64,000 nucleotides of DNA from an uncultured Schlesneria sp. GTDB lineage: Bacteria; Planctomycetota; Planctomycetia; Planctomycetales; Planctomycetaceae. Below the pieces are notes generated by a model, which did no database searches, had not been told where the DNA came from, and saw only the letters and a program-made list of their open reading frames with translations. This document shows, in pieces, positions 4,464-51,412 of this stretch. Numbering within the stretch: the stretch's first letter is position 1; every line of letters begins with the position of its first letter. A program made the position numbers and the translations under genes. The stretch covers positions 1 to 64,000 of the forward strand of contig CAIMFH010000035.1 in assembly GCA_903840265.1 (NCBI GenBank), in the 5' to 3' direction.

Positions 4464-5169
4464 CGGATGTTGATCGCCATGGTCTGCAAACCTGCCTTCA
4501 ATGAATTAACGGCTGAAGAAATCCATCAGCGAAATCGTAGCCTGATATCAGCTCGACAGCCAGCCGATCGCCGGCTTGAGTCACATCGCCCTGCCTAGCG
4601 GGCTCGCGCGATGGTCGAGGTGACGTGCCGGAATCGAATATCGCGGCGGTCTGGGCCGGCGATGCGAGACGCGATTTGTTTGGGCGTCAGTTTGGAGTTC
4701 GCGCTGGTTTTCCACAGTGGCCAATCAATGGAACGGCTGATTGACTATAAAGGTTGTGAGACCGAGCGACGCGCGGTCAAAGATAACTACAAAGGTTTCT
4801 ATTCATGAGTTCACACTTCATCGACAGCCAACCGCCTCATCCTTCGAAAACTGGTAGAGGTGCTTCGTGCTGGTATTATTCTGAAGCGTATACCTGGAAG
4901 CCTGGTTACTTCACGGAGTTCATTGCCGGGGACGAGCCGCGAGTTCCGGTCGTTGACGCTGCCACCGGGGTGATTGTGATCTTGTCATTCCGGAGCATTT
5001 CGTTCTCTCCCATCGTGCCGAAGGAAGCGCCGGCGAAGCCACGAGTTGGTGGTGGGGGATCGTGACGCGCCTGCGGCGAGAGAATTGATTTGAGAGAGTG
5101 GAGGCTGAGACGAAGAAGACTTAGGTACTCGACCGCGTGATGTCGGAATCGTGGCGATGTCTGTGAGCG
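4464..5169. other. Intergenic region upstream of the kinase
   Basis: About 700 bases without a recognised gene apart from one doubtful small frame at 4805. The kinase promoter must lie near its left part. No strong repeats were seen before the 30-bp element at 5170. Confidence 0.4.
4805..5065 (+). CDS. Doubtful small ORF, 86 residues
   Basis: ATG at 4805 is preceded by AAAGG about ten bases upstream. The product has a short aromatic stretch (SCWYYSEAYTWKPGYFTEF) and no family signal. It is the only frame in this gap with both a plausible ribosome-binding site and a protein-like composition. It may still be chance. Confidence 0.2.
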   Translation: MSSHFIDSQPPHPSKTGRGASCWYYSEAYTWKPGYFTEFIAGDEPRVPVVDAATGVIVILSFRSISFSPIVPKEAPAKPRVGGGGS

Positions 5170-5199
5170 GTCCGCGTGCTGACGCAGCGCGGCTCACCT
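5170..5199. repeat. 30-bp dispersed repeat, solo copy (family E)
   Basis: Begins GTCCGCGTGCTGACG and ends GCGGCTCACCT. It is identical over 30 bases to 48222-48251 and, inverted, to 48103-48132. Internally it can fold into a CCGCG/CGCGG hairpin with a bulge. It lies 18 bases beyond the stop of the CotH-like gene on the minus strand, as the 48-kb copy lies just beyond the stop of the PVC dehydrogenase. Confidence 0.85.
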
Positions 5200-5217
5200 G
5201 AAACTATTGGCGAAGGA

Positions 5218-6429
5218 TCAGCGGCCGGTGCGTCGGGCGAGTTCTGTGTCGAGCCATTTAGTTCGGGCGGCGACCCACTTTTTCATTTGTTTCAGGTCTT
5301 CGGTGAAGGTCAATTGGTTTGGGTCGCGGGGATCGATCTGTTTCCAGCGGCGTTCGTTGCGGGCGGCGGCGGGGCCCAGGGTTTTGGCGTTGTCATCGAT
5401 CAGGCGGCTGACGTTGTCGACGGAGAACTGTTGTTTGCGGAGGGCTTTCCATCTAGCCGCGTATTTCTGTTTGTAGGTGACGTTGCTCAGTAGTCGGTCG
5501 AAGAGATGGTTGGAGAGCCATTCTTTAGGTTCGACGATAGAGCCTTCCCAGTTTCGGCCGAAGGTGGCGTCGTAGTCCCACGGGACGAAGAAGAACCTGG
5601 GTTGCGGCACAGTTGCCGACGGGGCGTCTCGCGCAATGATGAAGTTCTTGTCGTTGCCGTCCATGTTGCTGGTGAATAGCAGCAGCAGGTGAAAGTCGAT
5701 GGCGTTGTCGACGTCGACTCGCGAGGCGATGCCGGACTTGGGATCGAAGAACTGGCGATCGGGGGCCTGGCCGACAAACTGGTTGAGCTCGTCGAGGGGA
5801 CTCCAATATTCAAGGTCTTCCGGCTCCGGTTCGTGCTGCTCGTACGCGCCATGTCCCTGTTGCTGGAAGTTGGCTCCATGGTCGACTGCCTTGTAGATGC
5901 AGGCGTGGCCGGTGTCGTTCTTGTCGAAGCGACGCAGGCCGAGCAGCGATCGTTCGACTCGTTCCATCAGCAAGTAGACGCCGTGGTAACTGTTGTTCAA
6001 GTTCACTTCCACGAACCGGCTACTCGCCGCGACGCGTTTGTTGGGATCGGCCGTGAGAGATTGAAACAGGTCATAGGAGAGCTTGTGCCGCATCATCGAG
6101 CAGTCGACGAAGGCGGCGTTGAGCACCCAGTTGCGATCTTTTTGAAGGCCCAGCCAATGTGTTGATTCATCCAGTTTGAGGGCGAACGATTTCTTTTCGT
6201 ATCCCTGCGACGATGCGCCGCGAAAACGGATCTTGCCCTGCAGCAGGTCGGTGTTGCCCTCTTTGATACTCGGCGGCGAGAGCATTTTGACAGTACAGGG
6301 AATGTATTGTTCGGAGCCGATCTGGTTGGTCGCGCGAAGTTCCAGGACAGGAAGATTCGATTCCGCGTTGGTCGCAGCGGCCGTGGCCAGGAATGCCAGG
6401 CACAAAATCAGGAAGCGGGATCGGTACAT
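5218..6429 (-). CDS. CotH-like kinase-fold secreted protein
   Basis: A 403-residue product from the ATG at 6427-6429, chosen because it opens a typical signal peptide (MYRSRFLILCLAFLATAAATNA). A longer in-frame frame reaches 6510 but would bury the signal. Family marks of CotH proteins: IRFRGASSQGYEKKSFALKL, RNWVLNAAFVDCSMMRHKLSYDLF, VEVNLNNSYHGVYLLMERV, NMDGNDKNF and WDYDATFGRNW. CotH was described as a spore-coat protein kinase in Bacillus, and homologues are common in non-sporulating planctomycetes as exported proteins. The DGNxxN and WDYD residues resemble the catalytic positions. Its substrate is unknown. Neighbours are unrelated, and it appears to be a single-gene unit ending next to repeat E. 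Confidence 0.85.
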   Translation of the reverse strand: MYRSRFLILCLAFLATAAATNAESNLPVLELRATNQIGSEQYIPCTVKMLSPPSIKEGNTDLLQGKIRFRGASSQGYEKKSFALKLDESTHWLGLQKDRNWVLNAAFVDCSMMRHKLSYDLFQSLTADPNKRVAASSRFVEVNLNNSYHGVYLLMERVERSLLGLRRFDKNDTGHACIYKAVDHGANFQQQGHGAYEQHEPEPEDLEYWSPLDELNQFVGQAPDRQFFDPKSGIASRVDVDNAIDFHLLLLFTSNMDGNDKNFIIARDAPSATVPQPRFFFVPWDYDATFGRNWEGSIVEPKEWLSNHLFDRLLSNVTYKQKYAARWKALRKQQFSVDNVSRLIDDNAKTLGPAAARNERRWKQIDPRDPNQLTFTEDLKQMKKWVAARTKWLDTELARRTGR

Positions 6430-6829
6430 GAGCAAGGCTTTGTTGAGTTGCTCGGAGATGGTCGAGGACACAGTCGCACTCGTTTTACGATGCCATTGGT
6501 CAGCGAGCAAGTCCGCTGTGGGCTGATGTCGACGTGGATCGCATTCATGGAGGCGAATACTGTGGGTTGGCTGGTGAAAATCGCACGATCGTGGCTGGAC
6601 CGAAACATCTGGTGAGGTGGGTCGTGCCTTTGAAGGTGACTGAAGAATAAACAGGTGAACAGGCGGCCATTCATCAGCAGCTTTTGCGGCCGATTTCTAG
6701 TGTTTGTCGGATTTGATTTGGCATTGCGTTCCAGTGGAACGGTACAAGAAGTGCGAACTATTTTTGTGGCACCGAGACACTGAATGTCGGGTGGCCAATG
6801 TCGGGCCGCTCATCATCAAGGGGAATGAA
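6430..6829. other. Intergenic region between divergent genes
   Basis: Holds the promoters of the CotH-like gene (leftward) and of the VOC-like gene (rightward). A frame open from 6704 runs into the VOC gene, but its first 42 codons match nothing in the family. No repeat or hairpin of note was seen. Confidence 0.35.
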
Positions 6830-14207: not shown

Positions 14208-14261
14208 TCGGCGTACGCAACTCGCGTGCGATGCCGAACGTTCGATTCGGATTTTGATTTG

Positions 14262-14346
14262 GGTGCCACGGAATCACCGTCTTCGAGGTGGCTGCGTCCT
14301 CATTCAAAAGACACGGCCATGTCGAGGACTCCAAGTCCGTGGCACC
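14262..14346. repeat. 86-bp-class palindromic repeat, complete copy (family P)
   Basis: Left arm starts GGTGCCACGGAATCACCGTC, right arm ends GACTCCAAGTCCGTGGCACC. The arms are imperfect inverted copies. The centre contains AAAGACACGGCCATGTCGAG. Related copies lie at 54059-54144 (complete), 43124-43184 (right part) and 9234-9255 (right end). Open frames crossing this element should not be taken as coding. Confidence 0.8.
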
Positions 14347-14504
14347 CCATCTTCATCCACTTCACGAGTAGAGTCGCCCGTCTCGCGACTGAGCACCGAG
14401 TTCGAGATCGCTTTCAAAAACGTCGCGTGATCATCATCATCGCGATTACGTCGAGAGGACTGGTGTCTCATTCGAGATTCCTGCTCGGCGTGCGAGATCT
14501 TGCG

Positions 14505-25511: not shown

Positions 25512-27200
25512 ATGAATTCGCAGGTTCCCGATGAATTGATCTCGGCCTATTTCGACGGCGAAGCTTCGCCCGAGGAACGTGCTGTGGTTGAGCGCCTGCT
25601 GGCCAGCAGTGAGGACGCGCAGCGCGAACTGAGCGAAACGGCGAAGCTGTCGGCGCTGCTGCATTCATTCCCTCGCGAATCGGCTCCGGCCGAATTGATT
25701 GGCAACGTCCTGCGTCAGACCGAACGGATGGCCACGCCCGTGCAAGCGGCTGCTGTGGCGGCACCGGTGCCGGTTCGAAACGTGTGGCGTGATTGGAAAG
25801 CTGGGTTCGTGGGAGCCGCCGTTACGGCAACAGCCATGGGACTGGTGATTGCCTTGACCAGCCCATCGGCCGAGCAGGCGGCGAAGCACCTCGCTATGAG
25901 TACGGCCGCGAGTGATTCGGCTTCGGTCTCCTCGCTGGAAGCAAAGAAGGATATGCCTCTGGCTGCGATGGACGATCAGTCAGGTGACTTGGATCGGCAC
26001 GCGAAGGCGGGATCCGCTGGCACCGAGCTCGCTGAGGCGGAGGCGATCCACCCTGCTGGCAAGGCAGATCCAAGTCCATCAGCGCGAATGGTGGCACCAC
26101 GCGCCATGAAAGCGGCGGCGCTCAAGTCCCAGAGTCCAGCGATGTCTCCCGAGCTCGTTGTCGATGCCGCTGCACTGCCGGCGCCAGTCGCTACTAAAGC
26201 ACCCGCCGAAGAGCAATCGCTGGTCCTGAATGAGTTGGGGCAAACGAACGACGAATTCCTGCAGAGTGTGAGTAAGGGCGAAGTGGTCGCCTTGATGCCC
26301 AAGGCCGCAGACCCGAACAGCAACGTCGCGGTGGTCTATCTGGAAGTGGTCGACATCAATCGCAGTGCCGACCAGATCCAGGTGCTGTTGAAGAAGAATT
26401 CCATTGCGCCCCGATCCGTCAAAAAAGATGGCGAGGCATCTCCTGACGATCTGGTGGTGATCTATCTGGAAGCGCCGGGCGAGAAGCTGGCGAACACACT
26501 GAAAGACGTTGATCGTCATCGCGATCTGTTCGTGAAATGGAGCCCGCAGGCTCCGTTGCAATTGGCGGCGAATGGCGACGAAGCGACGCAGGTGCTGCGC
26601 AAGAAAGAATCTGCAGGCCGCGGGGCCTCGGCGGATAAAGAGAAACAGTCGGACGCGAAAGGTGCCGGGGAAAAGCCGGATGCCGAGATGCCGGATGTCG
26701 ACATTGTTCTCGAAGCTCTGGCTCAAAGGAACGGTTATCAGAACGCCGGCGGTGCAAACCAGGGAGTTGCGGATCTCACGAGTCAGAACGGCAATGGTCG
26801 GGATGGGATCGAGAAGCTGCAGCGACAGCAGATCGCGAATTCGGCTCGCGGCATGACTAGAAATGAACCGTACTCGCGAAACGGGAACCCCATGGGAAAT
26901 GGGGGACAGTTAAGAGAACTGGCGCGGGTTGAGCCGGGGTATGACTTCGTCCGGATGAATAACTCGATCACGTTGGGCAATTCGGTTGCTTCGAATGGCC
27001 TGAATCTGGCGCAGTCCAATACGGCGACATTGAATCCGTTTCGCGGGGACTCGCAGCGTCGTGCCGTGACCAATTACGACGACGCAAAGCCCGCGAGTGG
27101 AGAGACCGGTAATCGTGCATTGCGAATGCTGTTTGTGCTGCATCCGCAGTCGGAAGTCGCTCCCGCTGCAGCGGCCCCCGCGCCTGCCAAACCAGAATAG
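25512..27200 (+). CDS. Probable transmembrane anti-sigma factor with large C-terminal domain
   Basis: A 562-residue protein; AGGAAGAAG precedes ATG 25512. The first 45 residues (DELISAYFDGEASPEERAVV, ERLLASSEDAQRELSE) match the start of anti-sigma domains. The H-x3-C-x2-C zinc motif of the classic ZAS type is absent. A membrane helix lies at about 98-116 (AGFVGAAVTATAMGLVIALT). The remaining 440 residues are outside and low-complexity in parts (Ala/Pro-rich, Asn/Gly-rich), with one folded-looking section around VAVVYLEVVDINRSADQIQV. It follows the ECF sigma gene and probably holds that factor at the membrane until a signal arrives. Confidence 0.75.
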   Translation: MNSQVPDELISAYFDGEASPEERAVVERLLASSEDAQRELSETAKLSALLHSFPRESAPAELIGNVLRQTERMATPVQAAAVAAPVPVRNVWRDWKAGFVGAAVTATAMGLVIALTSPSAEQAAKHLAMSTAASDSASVSSLEAKKDMPLAAMDDQSGDLDRHAKAGSAGTELAEAEAIHPAGKADPSPSARMVAPRAMKAAALKSQSPAMSPELVVDAAALPAPVATKAPAEEQSLVLNELGQTNDEFLQSVSKGEVVALMPKAADPNSNVAVVYLEVVDINRSADQIQVLLKKNSIAPRSVKKDGEASPDDLVVIYLEAPGEKLANTLKDVDRHRDLFVKWSPQAPLQLAANGDEATQVLRKKESAGRGASADKEKQSDAKGAGEKPDAEMPDVDIVLEALAQRNGYQNAGGANQGVADLTSQNGNGRDGIEKLQRQQIANSARGMTRNEPYSRNGNPMGNGGQLRELARVEPGYDFVRMNNSITLGNSVASNGLNLAQSNTATLNPFRGDSQRRAVTNYDDAKPASGETGNRALRMLFVLHPQSEVAPAAAAPAPAKPE

Positions 27201-35713: not shown

Positions 35714-35739
35714 GGCAACCCTCGTAGATGGATATCAGA

Positions 35740-35885
35740 AGTGATGAGATGAAAGTAACGAGTGACGAGGGAAGATCAATAGTGGGGGAGATGAAAGTAA
35801 CGAGATGAAAGTGACGAGTAATGAGGTAATCACGGGCGAAGGTCCCTCAGTTTTTCTCTTACCTCGTTACTTTCATCTCATCACT
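35740..35885. repeat. Perfect 23-bp inverted repeat with internal direct repeats
   Basis: Arms 35740-35762 and 35863-35885 are exact inverted copies (AGTGATGAGATGAAAGTAAC, then GAG). Inside the 100-base spacer the unit GATGAAAGT(A/G)ACGAG recurs near 35790 and 35804. The right arm ends one base before the last base of the efflux-pump gene's stop codon, and the left arm lies about 27 bases upstream of the binding-protein start. Confidence 0.85.
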
Positions 35886-35886
35886 T

Positions 35887-38800
35887 TCATCTTTGCTTCG
35901 CAAACCACGGGTAGACCGTTGGTAAGACGAGCGTCGTGAGTAACGTCGATGTGATCAACCCGCCGATCACGACTGTGGCCAGTGGCCGTTGTAGTTCGGC
36001 ACCGGATGTCGTTGAGAGGGCCATGGGCAGGAATCCCAGGCTGGCGACGAGGGCTGTCATCAGGACGGGACGCAGTCGGCTCATCGCGGCTTCTTCGGCG
36101 GCGGCACGGGGATCTTGACCCGACTCGCGCAAGTGCTCCGCGGCACTCACCCAGACGAGGCCGTTTAAAACCGCGACACCGAACAGGGCGATGAAGCCGA
36201 CACCGGCGGAGATGCTGAACGGCATCCCTCGTAGTGCGAGCGCGAAGACTCCTCCCGAGGCGGCAATTGGCACGGCGGTGAAGATCAAACCGGCCAGGCG
36301 AGACGAATGGAAGGTTGTGTGCAGCAGCAGGAAAATCAGCAGGAGTACGATGGGAGTGACTAGAGCGAGACGCAAACTAGCTGACTGCAGATTTTCAAAG
36401 TCGCCGCCCCATTTGATTTCATAGCCGGCAGGGAGTCGGATCTCTTTGGCGATCTTGAATTGAGCTTCGCGCACGAAGCTGGCGACATCACGATCGCGAA
36501 CATTCGCCTGAGCATAGGTGCGGCGGCGAGTTCCTTCGTGCTCGATGCTGGGTGGCGACTCTTCGATAATGACGCTGGCTAATTCGCCCAGTGGAATCTG
36601 GCGACCGTCGGCGGCGGTGATCGGAAGCTGTTCGAGGCGATTGACATCGGCTCGCCATTCGAGGGGAAAGCGAACGGTGATTGGGAATCGCATGCGACCA
36701 TCGAACACCAGGCCCGCTCGCCGACCACCTAAAGCCGATACGGTCTCCATCACACGCGCGGCGTCAATTCCATAGCGAGCCAAAGCCTCGGGCTGGGCCT
36801 GGATGCGCACCGTCGGCAGGTTTGCCTGATGCTCGGTTTTGACATCTGCCGCGCCAGCAATGGAGTTCAGTACAGACTCAATCTGTTTGCCAAGGCGGGA
36901 CAGCGTCGCAAGGTCTTCGCCGTAGACGAAGACCGCCACGTCGGCCTTCACGCCGGCGACGAGTTCATCAACACGCATCTCGATCGGTTGCGTGAATCCG
37001 AAGACGATCCCCGGCACATTGTCCCCCAACAACGCCTTGATCTCTTCGATCAGCTCGTTGCGCGTCTTGTGGCGAGGCCACTCGCCATGTGGCTTCAGCA
37101 GCACCCACAGATCTGTTTGCTGAACCCCCATCAAGTCGTTGGCAATCTCGGGACGCCCTGTCTTGCAGAAGGCGGTCTTCACCTCAGGCAGCTTCATTAT
37201 CAGGCTTTCCACCTGCTGGCCCAAGGGAATCGCATCTTCCAGCGTGGCGCTGGGGAGCCGCGTGATCTCGATCAACAAATCGCCTTCGTCCAGACGAGGC
37301 ATGAATTCCGCCCCCAGTTGCATGGCGACGGGAATGCTCGCCAGAAACACGCTGAACGCGACAATCGCGGTGATGACCGGGTTCCTGACAACGCGATGTA
37401 CCAGCGGATGATAGATCCGATGCAGGACGCGGATCAGCCAGATCTCTTTCTCTTCCATTTTCTTTGGCAGCGCCATCGATGCGAGTGCCGGCATCAACGT
37501 CAACGACAGTACCAGCGAACCTGCCAAAGCGAACAGGACGGTTAGCGCCATCGGCCGAAACAGCTTTCCTTCCGAACCCTGCAGGGCCAGCAGCGGGACA
37601 TAGACGATGGCGACAATCAGTTCTCCGAACATTGTCGGCTTGCGAACTTCGATCGCCGCATCGCGGATCACGTCATCATGTGGTCGGCCCTCGTGATTCA
37701 TCGAGATCCGGCGTACGCAGTTCTCGATCATAATGACCGAGCTATCGACGATCAGTCCGAAGTCGATTGCACCCAGGCTCATCAGGCTCGCGCTGACTCC
37801 GAAGGCCCACATCAGGTTGGCGGCGAACAACATCGACAGAGGAATCGCGAGCGCCACCACGATCCCGGCGCGCAGGCTGCCGAGCATGATCAGCAGCACG
37901 ACGATGACCAGCACGCCCCCTTCGAGCAGATTCTTTTCGACGGTGTGCAGCGTCCGCTCGATCAAGTCGGCGCGGTCATAGATGACTTCGATCGAGACGC
38001 CATCAGGAAGGGTCGTGCTGATCTCTTCTAGCCGTGCCTTCGCGGCATGGACCACCTCGCGTGAGTTCGCACCGAACAGCATCATGACCATCCCGGTCAC
38101 GGCTTCGCCCTTGCCATCGCGAGTCACCGCCCCCTGCCGAGTCATTGGCTGGATGCTGACATCGGCCACGTCTTTGATCAGGACTGGCGAGCCATTTTTG
38201 GCGGCTCGAATGACCACGTTTTGAATGTCGCTGACGGAGGTCAATAACGCCTGCCCACGGATGAATCGTTGCTCGTCATGATGGACGACGTATCCGCCCC
38301 CTGCCGTCGAGTTGTTGGATTCCATTGCCAGGAAGATCTCCGACAGCGACACGCCGAAGCTGGCCAAGCGATCGGGGTCGGGTCGCACCTGGTAAGACTG
38401 ATAGTAACCGCCGTGCGAATTGACCTCGGTGATCCCCGCCACTTGGCGCAGTCGCGGTGCGATCTGCCATTCGAGGATCGTGCGCAGTTCCATTAGCGAT
38501 TTGGTCTCGGACTTCACCTGGAACTGCAGGATCTCACCGAGGGCCGTTGTCAGCGGATTGAGGCGCGGCGTTCCGTATCCGGGGGGGATCTTTTCACCGG
38601 CATCGGCCAGTCGCTCCTGAATCAGTTGTCGAGCCCGATAGATATCGGTCCCTTCGTGAAAGACGACCGTCACGAGCGAGATCCCCAGTCGAGAAATACT
38701 GCGGATTTCTTCGACATTGGGCAGACCGCTCATCGTCAATTCGACGGGATAGCTGACGTATTGCTCGACTTCCAACGGCGACAAGGCACCCGCATCGGTC

Positions 38801-42845: not shown

Positions 42846-42915
42846 GTTGCCGGCCATGTCGCCAATCTCGCCAAGAGATTGGGTCTTCATAAGAATCGTG
42901 TGCAGAACTGGCCTT

Positions 42916-43112
42916 AGTCCCGGTAGGGACGGCAGATAATAGCCCACCACTTCTAGTGGTGGGTTATCGTCAACCGTTTGCGAGAAGTCCCGGAGGGACG
43001 ACAGAACTCTTCCGGTCGCGAATGCGAATGCAACTAGGTCGAGATGCAGGCCGCCGTCTCTTAGTTCAAACGGAAACAATCATCGAAATCTTCTGTCGTC
43101 CCTAGCGGGACT
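42916..43112. repeat. AGTCCCGG...GGGACG repeats (family D) with a hairpin
   Basis: Direct copies at 42916-42935 (AGTCCCGGTAGGGACGGCAG) and 42986-43004 (AGTCCCGGAGGGACGACAG), and an inverted copy at 43093-43112. Between the first two lies an 8-bp hairpin, arms 42943-42950 (CCCACCAC) and 42956-42963. Each short unit is itself a near palindrome (GTCCC/GGGAC). They occupy the gap between the stops of the convergent FliG-like and dps genes. Confidence 0.8.
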
Positions 43113-43123
43113 AAGAAAAAAGC

Positions 43124-43184
43124 GGTGGCCGGGTCCTCGATCAAAGACACGGACTTGTCGAAGACTCCAAGTCCGTGGCACCCC
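43124..43184. repeat. Partial copy of the palindromic family P
   Basis: From GGTGGCCGGGTCCTCGA through AAAGACACGGACTTGTCGAA to GACTCCAAGTCCGTGGCACC and a C run. It aligns with the centre and right arm of 14262-14346, and the sequence just after both copies (CCCCATCTTC versus CCCCAATCTTC) also agrees. The left arm is missing. Confidence 0.8.
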
Positions 43185-43223
43185 AATCTTCGTGATTGCC
43201 GTGAGCCGAACGCCCACCTTCAC

Positions 43224-46764: not shown

Positions 46765-47877
46765 CTATGGCAATCGGACTGTTCGCAGGTCTTGCGATGC
46801 GGTCCCCGATTGAACCAGGATCACGGCGTGCGTGTCGTTCAGACGATCCAATTGCACGACGCCATCGAGTTCCTTGATCGTTTCGAACGACTGACCGGCG
46901 GTGCCGCCACCAGTGACTGGTGTCGTCAGGCCTTCGTTCTTGGCGATGTTTTCGGTGCTGATCTTCATCACGCCACGGGCCGAGTTCGACATCAGCAGGA
47001 AGGTCTTGCCGTCCTTCTGATAGGTGATCATGTCGAGCGGCTTGTTGCGGTTGCCCAGTTCAGCGACCGTCGTTCCCTTCGTCTTCGTGCCTGGTTTCAA
47101 GGTGTCGATCGGGAACTTCACCAGCGGCGTGCAGATGAATCCGGCCAGCAAACTCGCTTCGCCATTGATGTTCAAGGGCACGAACGTACGAATCGCAGAG
47201 GTGTCTTCGCTGCGACCGTGAGCCGCATGATAGATTTCGACACTGGTTCCGTTAACACCGTCAGAGAACGGGAAGGGAATCTGATGGACGCTCGATGGTG
47301 ATTGTCCCGCAGCCAGGCCCGAGACATAGACCTTGCCTTCGGCATACGCCAGATCGGTGATCGCATCGTTGCGTGGGTTCGACGTGCGACCGTTGCGATT
47401 CACTTCCTTATCTTCGGGAGCGTCAGCCAGTTCGGCCTTCTGGAACGCGACCTTCTTCAGCGAGATTTCGGACAGCTTGCCCGATGCGTCGACTTTGACC
47501 AATGCTGCTGCGGCGTCGGCTCCCTGGCCCTTGGTGACGGCGACAAACACGTTGCCCGTCAGCGGGTTCACAGCCAGATCGTTGATCGTGATCTTGTCGG
47601 CGCTGGTCCCGAGTGTCTTGGCCACTTCGCCGTTCAAGTTCGCGACGTTCTGCTCGGCCTTTGCAGCATCGCCCTTGGTGTCGCCTGTGTCGATCGCAAA
47701 GATCGCCGCTCCCTTGGCATCGCCGACGAACACGATCCCGTCGGGACCGAAGGCCAGTGCCGTTGCCGACTTGATCGCCGGATCACCTTCTTTCAGGCCC
47801 CATTCGGCCGCCTGTCCCACAGACATCGACAACAACCAGCCAGCGATTGCACAAGAGAAGATTCGTCGAGGTTGCAT
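46765..47877 (-). CDS. Exported beta-propeller-like protein, unknown
   Basis: A 370-residue protein with signal peptide MQPRRIFSCAIAGWLLSMSV, then GQAAEWG. Repeated blade-like strands: ATALAFGPDGIVFVGDAKGA, DLAVNPLTGNVFVAVTKGQG, DLAYAEGKVYVSGLA and DMITYQKDGKTFLLMSNSAR. The pattern is NHL/WD-like but not diagnostic. No cysteines of catalytic type and no cytochrome motif are visible. Its position near the PVC dehydrogenase may be coincidental because repeat E separates them. Confidence 0.7.
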   Translation of the reverse strand: MQPRRIFSCAIAGWLLSMSVGQAAEWGLKEGDPAIKSATALAFGPDGIVFVGDAKGAAIFAIDTGDTKGDAAKAEQNVANLNGEVAKTLGTSADKITINDLAVNPLTGNVFVAVTKGQGADAAAALVKVDASGKLSEISLKKVAFQKAELADAPEDKEVNRNGRTSNPRNDAITDLAYAEGKVYVSGLAAGQSPSSVHQIPFPFSDGVNGTSVEIYHAAHGRSEDTSAIRTFVPLNINGEASLLAGFICTPLVKFPIDTLKPGTKTKGTTVAELGNRNKPLDMITYQKDGKTFLLMSNSARGVMKISTENIAKNEGLTTPVTGGGTAGQSFETIKELDGVVQLDRLNDTHAVILVQSGTASQDLRTVRLP

Positions 47878-48102
47878 GCGTCATTCCTTCTGCCAACGGG
47901 TAGCACCCACGCGACTCGCCACGCGAGACAGCTTTTCGAGGGAACCACAAGTCACATCAGTATGGGAAGCCAATCCCAGGTTGGGAATCCAGAACGCCCG
48001 ATGCCGTTTTAAGCTGGCTAGAAAGTATCTCGCGAAATTCATCGGATCTTAAGATGCGGTGTATGGCTGGCCTTGTTGAGTTATGCAACTAGCCCAACTC
48101 TG

Positions 48103-48251
48103 AGGTGAGCCGCGCTGCGTCAGCACGCGGACCCGGCTGACATGGAGATCTGATCTGGAGACAATGAATTCCAGATAGCCGCATCGAAGTGATGTGAGCA
48201 CTACGCCCGCTGCAGCGAAGAGTCCGCGTGCTGACGCAGCGCGGCTCACCT
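48103..48251. mobile_element. 149-bp MITE-like unit with perfect 30-bp inverted ends (family E)
   Basis: 48103-48132 (AGGTGAGCCGCGCTGCGTCA...) and 48222-48251 are exact inverted copies of 30 bases, and the 89-base centre has no ORF worth naming. A single end copy lies at 5170-5199. No transposase is nearby, and no target-site duplication could be confirmed by eye. It may be a non-autonomous transposable element or a pair of REP-type hairpins, as known for other bacteria. Confidence 0.65.
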
Positions 48252-48262
48252 GGGCATATTCT

Positions 48263-51200
48263 TCACTGCTCATTTGGCAACGGAACCTGCGTTGGCGACA
48301 TCAGGTACCCGACCAGATCACGAATCTGATCGTCGGTCAGTGGCTGCAATAATCCATCCGGCATCAACGACTGTGACGAAGTTTGGATCTCTTCGATGTC
48401 GGACAGATCCAGTGTCAGTCGTTCCTTCGCCGTTTGCAGCGTGAGCACCTTTTCCGTCTTCGACGCCACAATTCCGTTGAGCACTCGTCCATCTTCGAGC
48501 ACGACGACTGCCATGCGATAGTCCGCTCCGACGGCGGCACTGGGGTCGATCAGGTTGATCAGGACATAGTCCAGGTTCTGGCGACCCGACCCGGTCAGAT
48601 CAGGACCGATCTGCCCGCCATGCCCATACAGCCGATGACAACTCGCACAGGCTTTGTTGAAGACTTCACGGCCTTGCGGCTTGTCGGCTTGGGCGAGGAC
48701 TTCGGGTGTTAGCTGCGACTTCCACTTGGTGATCAGCCGCTGTCGATCTGCCGAGCTCTCTCGCAATTCGCCCCAGATCTCGGCCAGTCGCGCCGTGAGT
48801 TTGGGATTTCCCAAACTGAGGATTTGTCGGGCGTGCAGGACCGTCAGATCCGTCTTGGCGATCTTGCCGGCCGCGATTTGATTGAGCAGCGCTTCGGCAA
48901 ATGACGGTCGCGTCACGAGGGCATCGATCACTGCGGGGCGATCGACGGGGAAGAAGTTGCGATAGCTGTTCGCGAGCTTCGTTCCAATCGACGCGTCGTC
49001 AAACTCGGTCAGACCGCGAATGGCAGTTGTGTTCAAGTACCGGACGCCAAGCAGTTGTTCGCAGACTTTGCGCCGATCTGGGGCTCGATTGTCGATCAAC
49101 GTTTGCAGCGCTGCTCGCCTTGCGGCAAGTTCCGCCTTGCTATCCAGGGCCACGCGCTGCACTTCGTCGAGTGCCCGTCCATCGCCAAAAAGGACGCTCA
49201 GGTCACGTACCTGCTCATGCAGCTGGATGTCATCCAACGAGGCCACTTCTGCTTGCAGAGTCGACCAGTTGGCTGGTGCCTTCACTTTATGTCGCCCTGC
49301 CAGGCCATCGGACAGGCCTTTCAGAACGTCGGGCAGCACAGCATGAGCGCTGGCGGCAGTCAGCAAGGTCTCTATCGCACGTGGCTGCTCATCGATCATC
49401 TCGGCCAGTCGGCGTGCGATTAGTCGGCGCGTCGTCGGAAACTGGCAGCTTACGGCGAATTGAGCCACCTCCACTGGTTGCGACTTCGCGACCGGCATTA
49501 ATCCGTACCAGATCATGAGCGGAAGATTGTGATCGGACGCGTCACCCACGCGAGAAGCCAGTGGGACTGCGAGTTTGAGCCGGTGATCGACAGGAAGACG
49601 CTGCAACGTGGAAGCCAACACTAACCGCGTCAAAGGAGATTCATCGTCGTTTGCGGCGCGGACTAATTCTGCGACGACCGTTTCCGAAATGGTGGCCGTC
49701 GCCTGAGGATGCCGCTCGCCCATGATCGTGTCGAGAGGCCACGCATCCGTGAGCAGTCGAATGGCCCAGACTCGGACATGAGGTTCCGGATGCCGCAAGG
49801 TTTCGAGTAAGAACTGCTGATCGACGAGGCCCAGCACATACAGCGTGTGGAGGGCTCGTAGCTTCAACTCCGCCGTGGTTTCGTTCTTGAACATGGCGAG
49901 TAGTTCGTCACGAGCGGTTGTCTGCGTGGCGGCGTTCCAATCGCGATGGCTGGCGAGGTCCATCAAACGGCGACGTGCCTGGCGCACGAACCATTCGTTG
50001 CGATGCCGATGCAGTGCAATCAACTCGGTGACCGAGAGTACGTTCAAATCAACGCGGCTGGGCTTTGGCTCGCCGTAGCTGACTCGATAGATACGACCCG
50101 ACTTGCGATGCACGCCGGTTTGTTCGTGGCATTCGCCCGTGTCGCTCCAATCGAGGACGTAGACTGCTCCGTCGGGTCCATAACTCAAATCGATGCCGCG
50201 GAACCAGGGATCGGCCGCGAATAGCATGTCGGGTTCGTGTCGCCCCACGTACCCCGCGCCACGTGGTTCCAGTCGTTCGACGTTGACTCGTCGACCATGC
50301 AGGTTCAGCGTCAGCAGTCGACCGCGATACGTGTCGGGCCAGTTGTCGCCGCGGTAGATCGTCATCCCGCTGTGAGCGTGTCCGCCTCCCAGTCGATCAT
50401 GTTCGCCTTTGACGTTGCGAGAATCAGTCCAGTCTTTGCCGGTATCCCAGTGATAATGATCGGCGTGCGTGTCGATCGTCGCGTAGACATGAGGGTTGGG
50501 GTCTTCGCTGTGCGGTCGACGAAAGTGAGCCCCCGGGATCGCGTGCCACAGGTGGCCGTTGACTGTGTTGATGAAGAACGCTTCGCCATGTTCGTTCCAG
50601 TCGTGGCCCCAGGGATTGGTTGTGCCATGACACAGGACTTCGACGATCGCCTCCTCCCGTTTCGGAGCGGGGGGTGTCAGCCCCCTGGCTTCTGTCGATG
50701 GAACCGCGGCCATTCTTGATCGGAACCGCCACAAGCCGCCGAACAGCGGGACTCGCTTTTCGTCGGGCGTCCCTGGAACTCCCAATCGACCGGGACTCGA
50801 TGCCCCGCAGCGACCGTAGAGCCAGCCATCGGGGCCCCACTTCAGGCCGTTGGCAAACGTGTGGTGGTTGTCGGTCGCAGGAGTGAACCCGTCGAGCATC
50901 ACGACCGGCGCTCCGTCGGGCTTGTCGTTGCCGTCTCGATCGGGAATGTAAATCAGTTGCGGCGGCGTCAGCAGCCAGACTCCGTCGTTGCCGACGGTAA
51001 GTCCCGTCAGCATCTGCACGTCGTCGGTGAAGACAGTCCGCTTGTCGAAGCGACCATCTCCGTCGGTGTCTTCCAGGATCAGCACGCGATCTCGCAGGCT
51101 GAAGTCGAATTTCTTCGTGCGATCACCGTAAGTGTAATTCTCGGCGACCCACAAGCGGCCACGATGATCCCAGGCCATCGCGATCGGGTTCTGCACGTCG

Positions 51201-51412
51201 GGTTCGGCCGCGAAGACGGTGACTTGGAATCCGTCGGGAACGCGAAACCCACGAGCGGCCTCGTCGGGCGGTAATGCCTTCGTCGTCGTATCCTGCTCGG
51301 TGTTGATCGGATCGGGAAACGAACCTGGTTTTGGCGAATCCGCGGCACCGGTCAGCAGCAGTCTGAGAAACAGGACGACGATGATGGAAACGGAAGCGGC
51401 AAAAATACGCAT
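48263..51412 (-). CDS. PVC-type membrane-bound dehydrogenase with HEAT repeats and CxxCH cytochrome
   Basis: A 1049-residue exported protein (signal MRIFAASVSIIVVLFLRLLL, then TGAADS). N-terminal propeller typical of the family: GFRVPDGFQVTVFAAEPDVQ, MAWDHRGRLWVAENYTYGDR and ILEDTDGDGRFDKRTVFTDD. It continues with WGHDWNEHGEAFFINT and HSGMTIYRGDNWPD. The middle (about 450-880) is HEAT-like helices. Near the end is one heme-binding motif, CASCH at about 923, followed by GHGGQIGPDLTGSGRQ, then a short C-terminal domain (LEDGRVLNGIVASKTEKVLT). Such proteins are numerous in planctomycetes and Verrucomicrobia and are thought to oxidise sugars or alcohols in the periplasm. Substrate unknown. Confidence 0.92.
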   Translation of the reverse strand: MRIFAASVSIIVVLFLRLLLTGAADSPKPGSFPDPINTEQDTTTKALPPDEAARGFRVPDGFQVTVFAAEPDVQNPIAMAWDHRGRLWVAENYTYGDRTKKFDFSLRDRVLILEDTDGDGRFDKRTVFTDDVQMLTGLTVGNDGVWLLTPPQLIYIPDRDGNDKPDGAPVVMLDGFTPATDNHHTFANGLKWGPDGWLYGRCGASSPGRLGVPGTPDEKRVPLFGGLWRFRSRMAAVPSTEARGLTPPAPKREEAIVEVLCHGTTNPWGHDWNEHGEAFFINTVNGHLWHAIPGAHFRRPHSEDPNPHVYATIDTHADHYHWDTGKDWTDSRNVKGEHDRLGGGHAHSGMTIYRGDNWPDTYRGRLLTLNLHGRRVNVERLEPRGAGYVGRHEPDMLFAADPWFRGIDLSYGPDGAVYVLDWSDTGECHEQTGVHRKSGRIYRVSYGEPKPSRVDLNVLSVTELIALHRHRNEWFVRQARRRLMDLASHRDWNAATQTTARDELLAMFKNETTAELKLRALHTLYVLGLVDQQFLLETLRHPEPHVRVWAIRLLTDAWPLDTIMGERHPQATATISETVVAELVRAANDDESPLTRLVLASTLQRLPVDHRLKLAVPLASRVGDASDHNLPLMIWYGLMPVAKSQPVEVAQFAVSCQFPTTRRLIARRLAEMIDEQPRAIETLLTAASAHAVLPDVLKGLSDGLAGRHKVKAPANWSTLQAEVASLDDIQLHEQVRDLSVLFGDGRALDEVQRVALDSKAELAARRAALQTLIDNRAPDRRKVCEQLLGVRYLNTTAIRGLTEFDDASIGTKLANSYRNFFPVDRPAVIDALVTRPSFAEALLNQIAAGKIAKTDLTVLHARQILSLGNPKLTARLAEIWGELRESSADRQRLITKWKSQLTPEVLAQADKPQGREVFNKACASCHRLYGHGGQIGPDLTGSGRQNLDYVLINLIDPSAAVGADYRMAVVVLEDGRVLNGIVASKTEKVLTLQTAKERLTLDLSDIEEIQTSSQSLMPDGLLQPLTDDQIRDLVGYLMSPTQVPLPNEQ

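Follow-up and report, generated by a model that had tools for sequence, protein, structure and literature searches.

Introduction

The elements described here have their closest counterparts in REPINs, inverted doublets of short palindromes called REPs, and in the RAYT transposases associated with REPs. In the part of PMC3116915 devoted to Pseudomonas fluorescens SBW25, a REPIN is a doublet of inverted REPs whose ends are highly conserved and whose spacer is less so; REPINs are dispersed outside genes, predicted to form a long hairpin and served in trans by a RAYT, with singlets seen as remnants. The family analyzed here is alike in these respects, and differs in its foot (GTGAG), its unalignable spacer, its phylum, its copy number of dozens rather than hundreds, and the scarcity of compensatory changes, of which there are hardly any.

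The TnpAREP/REP systems of E. coli and Stenotrophomonas, as portrayed in the relevant sections of PMC8266576 and PMC2817692, also have a RAYT gene flanked by inverted REPs. In these sections, TnpAREP recognizes a tetranucleotide and a hairpin on single strands, and the bulge in the stem is required in E. coli. The guide there is GTAG, and the RAYT described here scores far under the NCBIfam cut-off for REP-associated tyrosine transposases. For other RAYTs, sections of PMC8266576 and PMC3116915 describe how the enzyme recognizes a hairpin together with a guide tetranucleotide in single-stranded DNA and cleaves nearby, and report REPIN excision observed in reads.

Two relevant reports on RAYTs or REPs and Planctomycetes (PMC3733652 and PMC6006769) were among the matches listed in our literature search, and no title among the matches listed concerned such repeats in Schlesneria. 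The sections of PMC3733652 on the GTAG and CGTC super-families describe palindromes of 20-40 bp that lie mostly downstream of genes, with most families paired with tags outside (HH type), all as found here, and name R. baltica among the listed hosts of several REP families. The foot of our repeats is neither GTAG nor CGTC; in that account the CGTC repeats have no RAYT, whereas here a RAYT lies between the repeats. The passages of PMC6006769 on class 3 TnpAY1 describe enzymes mainly from Planctomycetes, Acidobacteria and Proteobacteria, with a Tyr-Gln motif as in class 1, extended N-terminal conservation, and flanking atypical structures that are possibly high-copy. Our case is alike, except that the published foot is CnGA and ours is GTGA or GCGA followed by G.

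We analyzed a 149-base unit with perfect inverted ends in DNA of an uncultured Schlesneria species. We conclude, with a probability of roughly 85%, that it is a REPIN, that is, a heads-out REP doublet, most likely spread in trans by a RAYT encoded on contig C190 of the same genome.

Three exact copies of a 30-mer in the window

The window is a stretch of 64,000 nucleotides from the source genome (G000; 7.49 Mb in 204 contigs). The original prediction had described three exact copies of a 30-mer, and we found GTCCGCGTGCTGACGCAGCGCGGCTCACCT at precisely these places: 5170-5199 (+), 48103-48132 (-) and 48222-48251 (+), the strands being those of the 30-mer. There were no matches at ≤3 mismatches in 100 dinucleotide shuffles of the window. 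The window contains five inverted repeats of at least 22 bases with arms less than 400 bp apart, and among them the 30-mer pair at 48103-48251 alone has arms that are 100% complementary (30 nt each, with 89 nt between them). The distances given for the neighboring stops also held: the minus-strand ORF ending at 48263 is 11 bases away, and the ORF ending at 5218 is 18 bases away. The features of the two sites are as follows, with REPs read from head to tail; G012 is a genome of another species of the same genus.

48103-48132, plus strand: left REP of the REPIN; core 48105-48130 GTGAGCCGCGCTGCGTCAGCACGCGG; foot GTGAG on the outer side; type A tail (ACCC...) inward
48133-48221, no strand: REPIN spacer (loop); subterminal bases resemble other A/B-type pairs; centre unalignable with them
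48222-48251, minus strand: right REP of the REPIN; foot outward; type B tail (ACTCTTCGCTGC...) inward; 11 bases past the stop at 48263
48263-51412, minus strand: gene whose stop faces the REPIN; DUF7133 and cytochrome c domains
46765-47877, minus strand: next ORF downstream, on the same strand, with its 5' end facing the REPIN; no Pfam match at E 0.001
5170-5199, minus strand: single REP; core 5172-5197; foot towards the ORF ending at 5218
5068-5209, minus strand: longer repeat enclosing the single REP; aligned related copies in G000 and G012
5218-6510, minus strand: gene adjoining the single REP; CotH kinase family

The unit at 48103-48251 is an ACC/ACTC pair by its tails and measures 145 bases from foot to foot. 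The copy at 5170-5199 had been described as a lone end. It is indeed a single REP, but it also belongs to the longer repeat of about 140 bp (about 5068-5209), whose relatives are at C68:12757-12904, C68:13739-13868 and C124:1608-1765 in the source genome and at C28:17485-17642 in G012. Neither window site (48103-48251, 5170-5199) had an Rfam match at the gathering threshold, and no terminator-like site was found in 47900-48400, which sets aside a known RNA family or a terminator as an identity for the window unit.

Other repeats were seen in the window. Rfam calls an Acido-Lenti-1 'sRNA' at 42916-42963 (within 42913-43115), and a partner in inverted orientation lies at 43092. Genome-wide there are at least 29 Acido-Lenti-1 matches (150 of 1326 candidates scored), 18 of them over the cut-off, with six inverted neighbor pairs about 180-230 bp apart among the matches listed. 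Rather than an sRNA gene, the window copy seems to be one more REP-like palindrome of the dispersed kind. A different palindromic repeat, also dispersed, has the sequence GACACGGCCTTGTCGAAGACTCCAAG...GTGGCACCC; it occurs at 14261-14347 and 43146-43185 and also at loci L102, L104 and L138, and is nested inside REPINs in both species. Finally, an inverted repeat at 35739-35886 (31 bp, 90% complementary, 86-bp spacer), located just past the stop of a minus-strand ORF at 35887, is possibly another miniature element.

The 30-mer belongs to a family dispersed in two genomes

The genome-wide search suggested by the original prediction gave far more than three copies. There were 55 matches to the 30-mer at ≤3 mismatches in the source genome, 19 of them exact, and none to a reversed control pattern. 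G012 had 54 matches at ≤3 mismatches. The remaining 57 of the 59 genomes searched, a set that includes the source genome, had none at this threshold. Diverged copies of the window site were detected by BLAST as 87-90% matches in G001, G009 and G013.

We also scored a general pattern for the build of these REPs, GAGCN{5,6}GCGTCAGC, against its reversed control in 15 genomes of the genus. Matches against control were 56/6 in the source genome, 62/5 in G012, 27/3 in G001, 26/1 in G002, 15/1 in G004, 27/0 in G005 and 23/2 in G006, and G009 had 344 matches against 12; the other seven genomes were near control. Other species of the genus thus carry repeats of the same build and different spelling, with the most in G009. 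The repeats of G009, with spellings such as GAGCGGGGCGGCGTCAGC, form a much larger REP population than that of the window's genome, and their listed places are often close plus/minus neighbors, heads-out, on many contigs.

REP anatomy and predicted folding

To describe the repeat we sampled 34 stretches of the source genome around copies besides the window and 36 stretches of G012. The core 26-mer had 122 matches at ≤6 mismatches in the sampled sequence of the two genomes. From head to tail, each REP consists of the foot GTGAG, a stem CCGCG-TGC with one bulged C, the loop GTCA, the second side of the stem, and a tail. The triplet before the foot is mostly CAG. Each of the five positions of the foot is kept in 110 to 122 of the 122 copies. 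REPs and REPINs are expected to have the tetranucleotide GTAG or GTGG (GT[AG]G) 5' of the hairpin, and the family departs from this with its GTGAG. The tails of 117 copies (≤3 mismatches) begin with ACC in 44, ACT(C/T) in 12, AT in 51 and other bases in 10.

The region 48095-48240 folded as RNA is more stable than shuffled sequences (z -6.35), because its ends are inverted. Single arms folded as RNA have the stem in each fold, with z from -0.6 to -2.1, not clearly beyond shuffles; for an example arm, 53 of 200 shuffles folded equally well. No covariation was found among 976 stem cells within the family: 924 were unchanged, 17 were kept by one-sided and 2 by two-sided change, and 33 were broken. 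Since the arms are not clearly stable and changes in the stem mostly break it, the bulged hairpin of a single REP is predicted mainly from the build shared across families.

REPs are paired heads-out

Neighboring REPs less than 400 bp apart were heads-out in 29 of 31 cases, compared to an expectation of one in four; the other two, both in the source genome, had the same orientation. These are inverted doublets with conserved ends, as expected of REPINs, and given this pairing we read the unit at 48103-48251 as a REPIN.

It is also conceivable that the pairs are not mobile units, and that single REPs were inserted independently and came to lie heads-out only through insertion beside the 3' ends of genes. 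The central part of the spacer cannot be aligned between different pairs, which would be odd if whole doublets had moved recently, and the tail types vary. In addition, 64 of the 122 core hits are unpaired. The two arms of a pair agree with each other only marginally (P about 0.05), and this agreement did not serve us as evidence. Independent insertion does not explain why heads-out pairs are also found between tandem genes, with one head facing a 5' end, as in the window unit itself. Nor does it explain the A/B-type pairs, which share two different kinds of subterminal motif, one kind at each end. We consider independent insertion unlikely.

The perfect 30-bp ends, the length of 149 bp and the dispersal would also suit an ordinary MITE, one with terminal inverted repeats of 30 bp that belongs to a DDE-type insertion sequence. 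Such an element should be bordered by a target site duplication, and the target duplications that the original prediction had proposed to look for did not appear: 0 of 29 pairs had an exact direct repeat of 4, 5, 6 or 8 bases flush with both feet. The many single ends (the 64 unpaired hits), the lack of spacer conservation, and the presence of the same ends around an HUH/Y1 RAYT gene (below) further distinguish the REPIN family from such a MITE, which we regard as extremely improbable.

REP heads face the 3' ends of genes more often than the 5' ends

By crude ORF calls, 102 of 117 copies from the two genomes are extragenic, with orthologous sites entering such pooled counts twice; the family therefore has the many dispersed, mainly extragenic copies of a short palindrome that characterize REPs and REPINs. 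In 64 copies the head lies within 100 bp of an ORF; the end it faces is the 3' end in 50 of these copies and the 5' end in 14. Counted by genome, the numbers for 3' and 5' ends were 22 and 9 in the source genome (P 0.03) and 28 and 5 in G012 (P 7e-5). The suspicion that placement at gene ends is not random, based on the two window sites, was therefore correct. The gene-end preference is real and is typical of REPs, which the pertinent section of PMC3733652 places mostly downstream of genes.

A RAYT-type transposase lies between the same repeats

The transposase with matching ends that the original prediction had proposed to look for was found as a RAYT-type gene on contig C190 (151482-152057; protein-search match 151548-152021; likely frame 192 aa). 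The 30-mer is present on both sides of the gene, at 151429, 152114 and 152236. The locus reads REP, RAYT, then a half REP immediately in front of the start of the RAYT, and lastly a REPIN pair. The gene was detected by a protein search with the product of L034, and was missed by a PF01797 search of the genome. That search found four genes, and no core match (≤8 mismatches) was found in their 3.3-kb loci except for one 6-mismatch match beside L034. An IS200-type gene, L032 on C8, has a 30-mer 2.8 kb away on the same contig. With the core nearly absent from their loci, the four PF01797 genes were abandoned as a route to the cognate transposase. L034 itself (C14:7425-7979) is a second RAYT-like gene of the source genome. 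It is flanked by three direct copies of AGCGGCACGGCGCAAGCCGTCCGGTGT, which has no others genome-wide at ≤3 mismatches and is not dispersed.

The counterpart in G012 (L055, C42:146031-146483) is in the same gene neighborhood, with the 30-mer on one side and no REP found on its 3' side. A cognate RAYT flanked by the same repeats, a hallmark of REP and REPIN systems, is thus present with repeats on both sides in the source genome and on one side in G012. A frameshift close to the start breaks the frame of the G012 gene; this may mean that the REP family of G012 is left without its enzyme, or it may be an assembly error.

The HUH motif and single catalytic Tyr that define the HUH/Y1 enzymes (the IS200/IS605 and RAYT superfamily) are present: H107, H109 and Y167 are the same in all nine relatives aligned. 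All nine proteins match PF01797 (Y1_Tnp) and NF047646 (REP_Tyr_transpos) at E up to 0.1. The RAYT of the source genome is under the Pfam curated cut-off (17.6 vs 23 bits) and under that of NF047646, the NCBIfam model for REP-associated tyrosine transposases (26.5 vs 80 bits). A profile of the nine proteins gave eight hits in PDB, including the transposase structure 2f4f at E 1.5e-4. Ranked above it were two designed six-fold repeat proteins (E 2.8e-7 and 9.6e-6), which summed short stretches, none passing alone, and the solved E. coli TnpAREP was not among the eight. Comparison of the RAYT profile with three IS200-type genes of the source genome gave a probability of 78%, and structure prediction from a two-row alignment gave a mean pLDDT of 38.8. 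The RAYT is divergent.

A Gln follows the catalytic Tyr by four residues in seven of the nine proteins and by five in L184, and L058, which is cut in the alignment, reads YTIDQ. The Tyr-Gln motif of class 3 TnpAY1 is therefore present, and it is not specific to class 3 because class 1 has the same motif. The class 3 foot CnGA was not found; the feet are GTGA or GCGA followed by G, and CAGAG at the more distant locus L186. Set beside the published description of the class, rather than a class profile, the RAYT would fit class 3 TnpAY1 by its Tyr-Gln motif and its phylum.

Related RAYTs and their repeats in Planctomycetota

We checked 48 rows of RAYT loci, in which some genes occur twice and the source genome and G012 are included. 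Repeats with the foot G[CT]GAG and loop GTCA were heads-out on both sides in 4 of the 48 rows (L180, L183, L185 and L054), with perfect inverted repeats of 30 bp at L180 and 31 bp at L185. A repeat of this pattern was on one side only in seven rows, those of the source genome and G012 among them, and no flanking repeat of this pattern was found in 37. L184 has a 15-bp pair with the foot GCGAG that the pattern missed, and L182 has two copies in the same orientation. Some related RAYTs thus carry different repeats of the same build.

Among genomes of the phylum, 14 of 392 were rich in the pattern, defined as at least 15 more matches than the reversed control. A RAYT match at E 1e-10 or better was found in 10 of these 14, compared to 33 of the 378 others (Fisher P 7e-8, or 4e-7 when the source genome is left out, with kinship between genomes ignored in both values). 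In the other 4 of the 14 rich genomes, no RAYT match was found.

Sites and tails are turned over between two species

The original prediction had proposed looking for empty sites in relatives. Both window sites are without the REP in G012, and no clean empty site was recovered in comparisons with this genome. At the site of the window REPIN, G012 has another inverted repeat, similar in size. This counterpart, L132 (C3, about 25760-25957), has the inverted repeat AACGCAAAGTCGCCAAGGCG..., which gave 12 matches in 611 kb of fetched G012 DNA and 3 in 338 kb of the source genome. The REP at 5172 is absent beside the orthologous G012 gene, where only the gene side aligns and the other flank does not, possibly as a result of rearrangement at this site. 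The REPs at C27:18470, L106 and L113 are also missing in G012, through larger unaligned stretches.

REPs are at the same place in both species at 13 hand-chosen loci, giving 19 ends for comparison; L109 and L117 versus L133 were left out because they share a repeat and their orthologous place is unclear. This set leans to shared sites because the G012 stretches were mostly fetched around its own REPs. At the 19 orthologous ends, the core 26-mer is 94% identical and the head-side flank 84%. At 4 of the 13 loci, one of them the RAYT locus, the two species have different tail types (7 of the 19 ends). At these loci the tails and spacer change right after the 26-mer, from the ACC or ACTC type in the source genome to type C (AT...) in G012. 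The switches follow the majority tail types of each genome: A and B types against C number 41 and 12 in the source genome, and 15 and 39 in G012.

One explanation of the switches is that REPs may be fixed docking sites where the inner part of a REPIN is exchanged. If so, spread would in part not require new insertion: resident REPINs would be overwritten, through REP-to-REP recombination or RAYT-guided replacement. We think this rather unlikely. The tail switches could be explained more plainly by differential deletion from ancestral REP clusters.

The identity of the 26-mer at orthologous ends, higher than that of the adjacent head-side flank, could also be taken to mean that the repeats are host regulatory or structural sites under selection (mRNA 3'-end hairpins, terminators or nucleoid-binding sites), with the RAYT association incidental. 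The preference of heads for gene 3' ends over 5' ends would fit as well. Such sites would not be expected to have a spelling specific to two of 59 genomes, with other spellings elsewhere in the genus, or to be lacking from both window positions in G012. The window unit has no T-run terminator, a RAYT lies between the same repeats, and some related RAYTs are accompanied by different repeats of the same build. Selection on host sites is, in our judgment, quite improbable as the explanation of the family. The narrower idea that only three copies exist, at positions conserved among relatives as regulatory sites, is not favored, because the family is large, its spelling is found in two of 59 genomes, and both window sites lack the repeat in G012. 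The proposal of a REP-type element mobilized by a distant TnpA is instead supported by the dispersal of 55 and 54 copies, the inverted doublets, and the RAYT between the same repeats.

A REPIN in the source genome that looks like a deleted RAYT element

The REPIN at C27:4793-4970 has one tail like the 3' side of the RAYT gene and the other like its 5' side. For each end, 0 of 1000 shuffles aligned as well; the tail of the window REPIN, used as a control, was matched by 790 and 287 of 1000 shuffles. The 5'-side alignment appears to run on, more weakly, into the start of the RAYT coding sequence. From these alignments, C27:4793-4970 appears to be a RAYT element with an internal deletion. The window REPIN differs in its tails, and therefore only its REPs tie it to the RAYT on C190.

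Discussion

Our results indicate that these REPINs form a new family within a known kind of genomic parasite. It works like a REPIN/RAYT system and lacks one defining feature, the GT[AG]G foot. The sequence anatomy, copy number, orientation of pairs, REP-flanked RAYT, heads-out repeats beside some related RAYTs, turnover of sites and deletion derivative are observed in the genomes. The following model adds folding, binding, cleavage, copying and any present activity, which we infer from sequence, as we do the mobility of the REPINs. When single-stranded, as on the lagging-strand template for example, each REP could fold into a bulged hairpin with the loop GTCA beside the foot GTGAG, and the whole unit could fold into one long hairpin. 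By analogy with other RAYTs, GTGAG would hold the guide. The HUH/Y1 single-strand transposase encoded on C190 (RAYT, ~192 aa) would most likely recognize foot and hairpin at both ends, and would cut and rejoin the DNA such that intergenic sites received doublets in trans. A REP that stands alone is probably what remains of a decayed doublet. Internal deletion of the RAYT element probably gave rise to the family, and one such derivative would still be recognizable; a deletion derivative with both ends of the RAYT element supports an origin of REPINs from a full transposon.

These findings place a REPIN/RAYT system with the unusual foot GTGAG in Planctomycetota, for which the literature found lists REPs and describes class 3 enzymes and their repeats only briefly. 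A genus with repeats of the same build and of differing spelling and number is a natural test bed for the spread, decay and possible replacement of REPINs, and the two sister species, with about 50 copies each that are partly shared and partly turned over, add to it.
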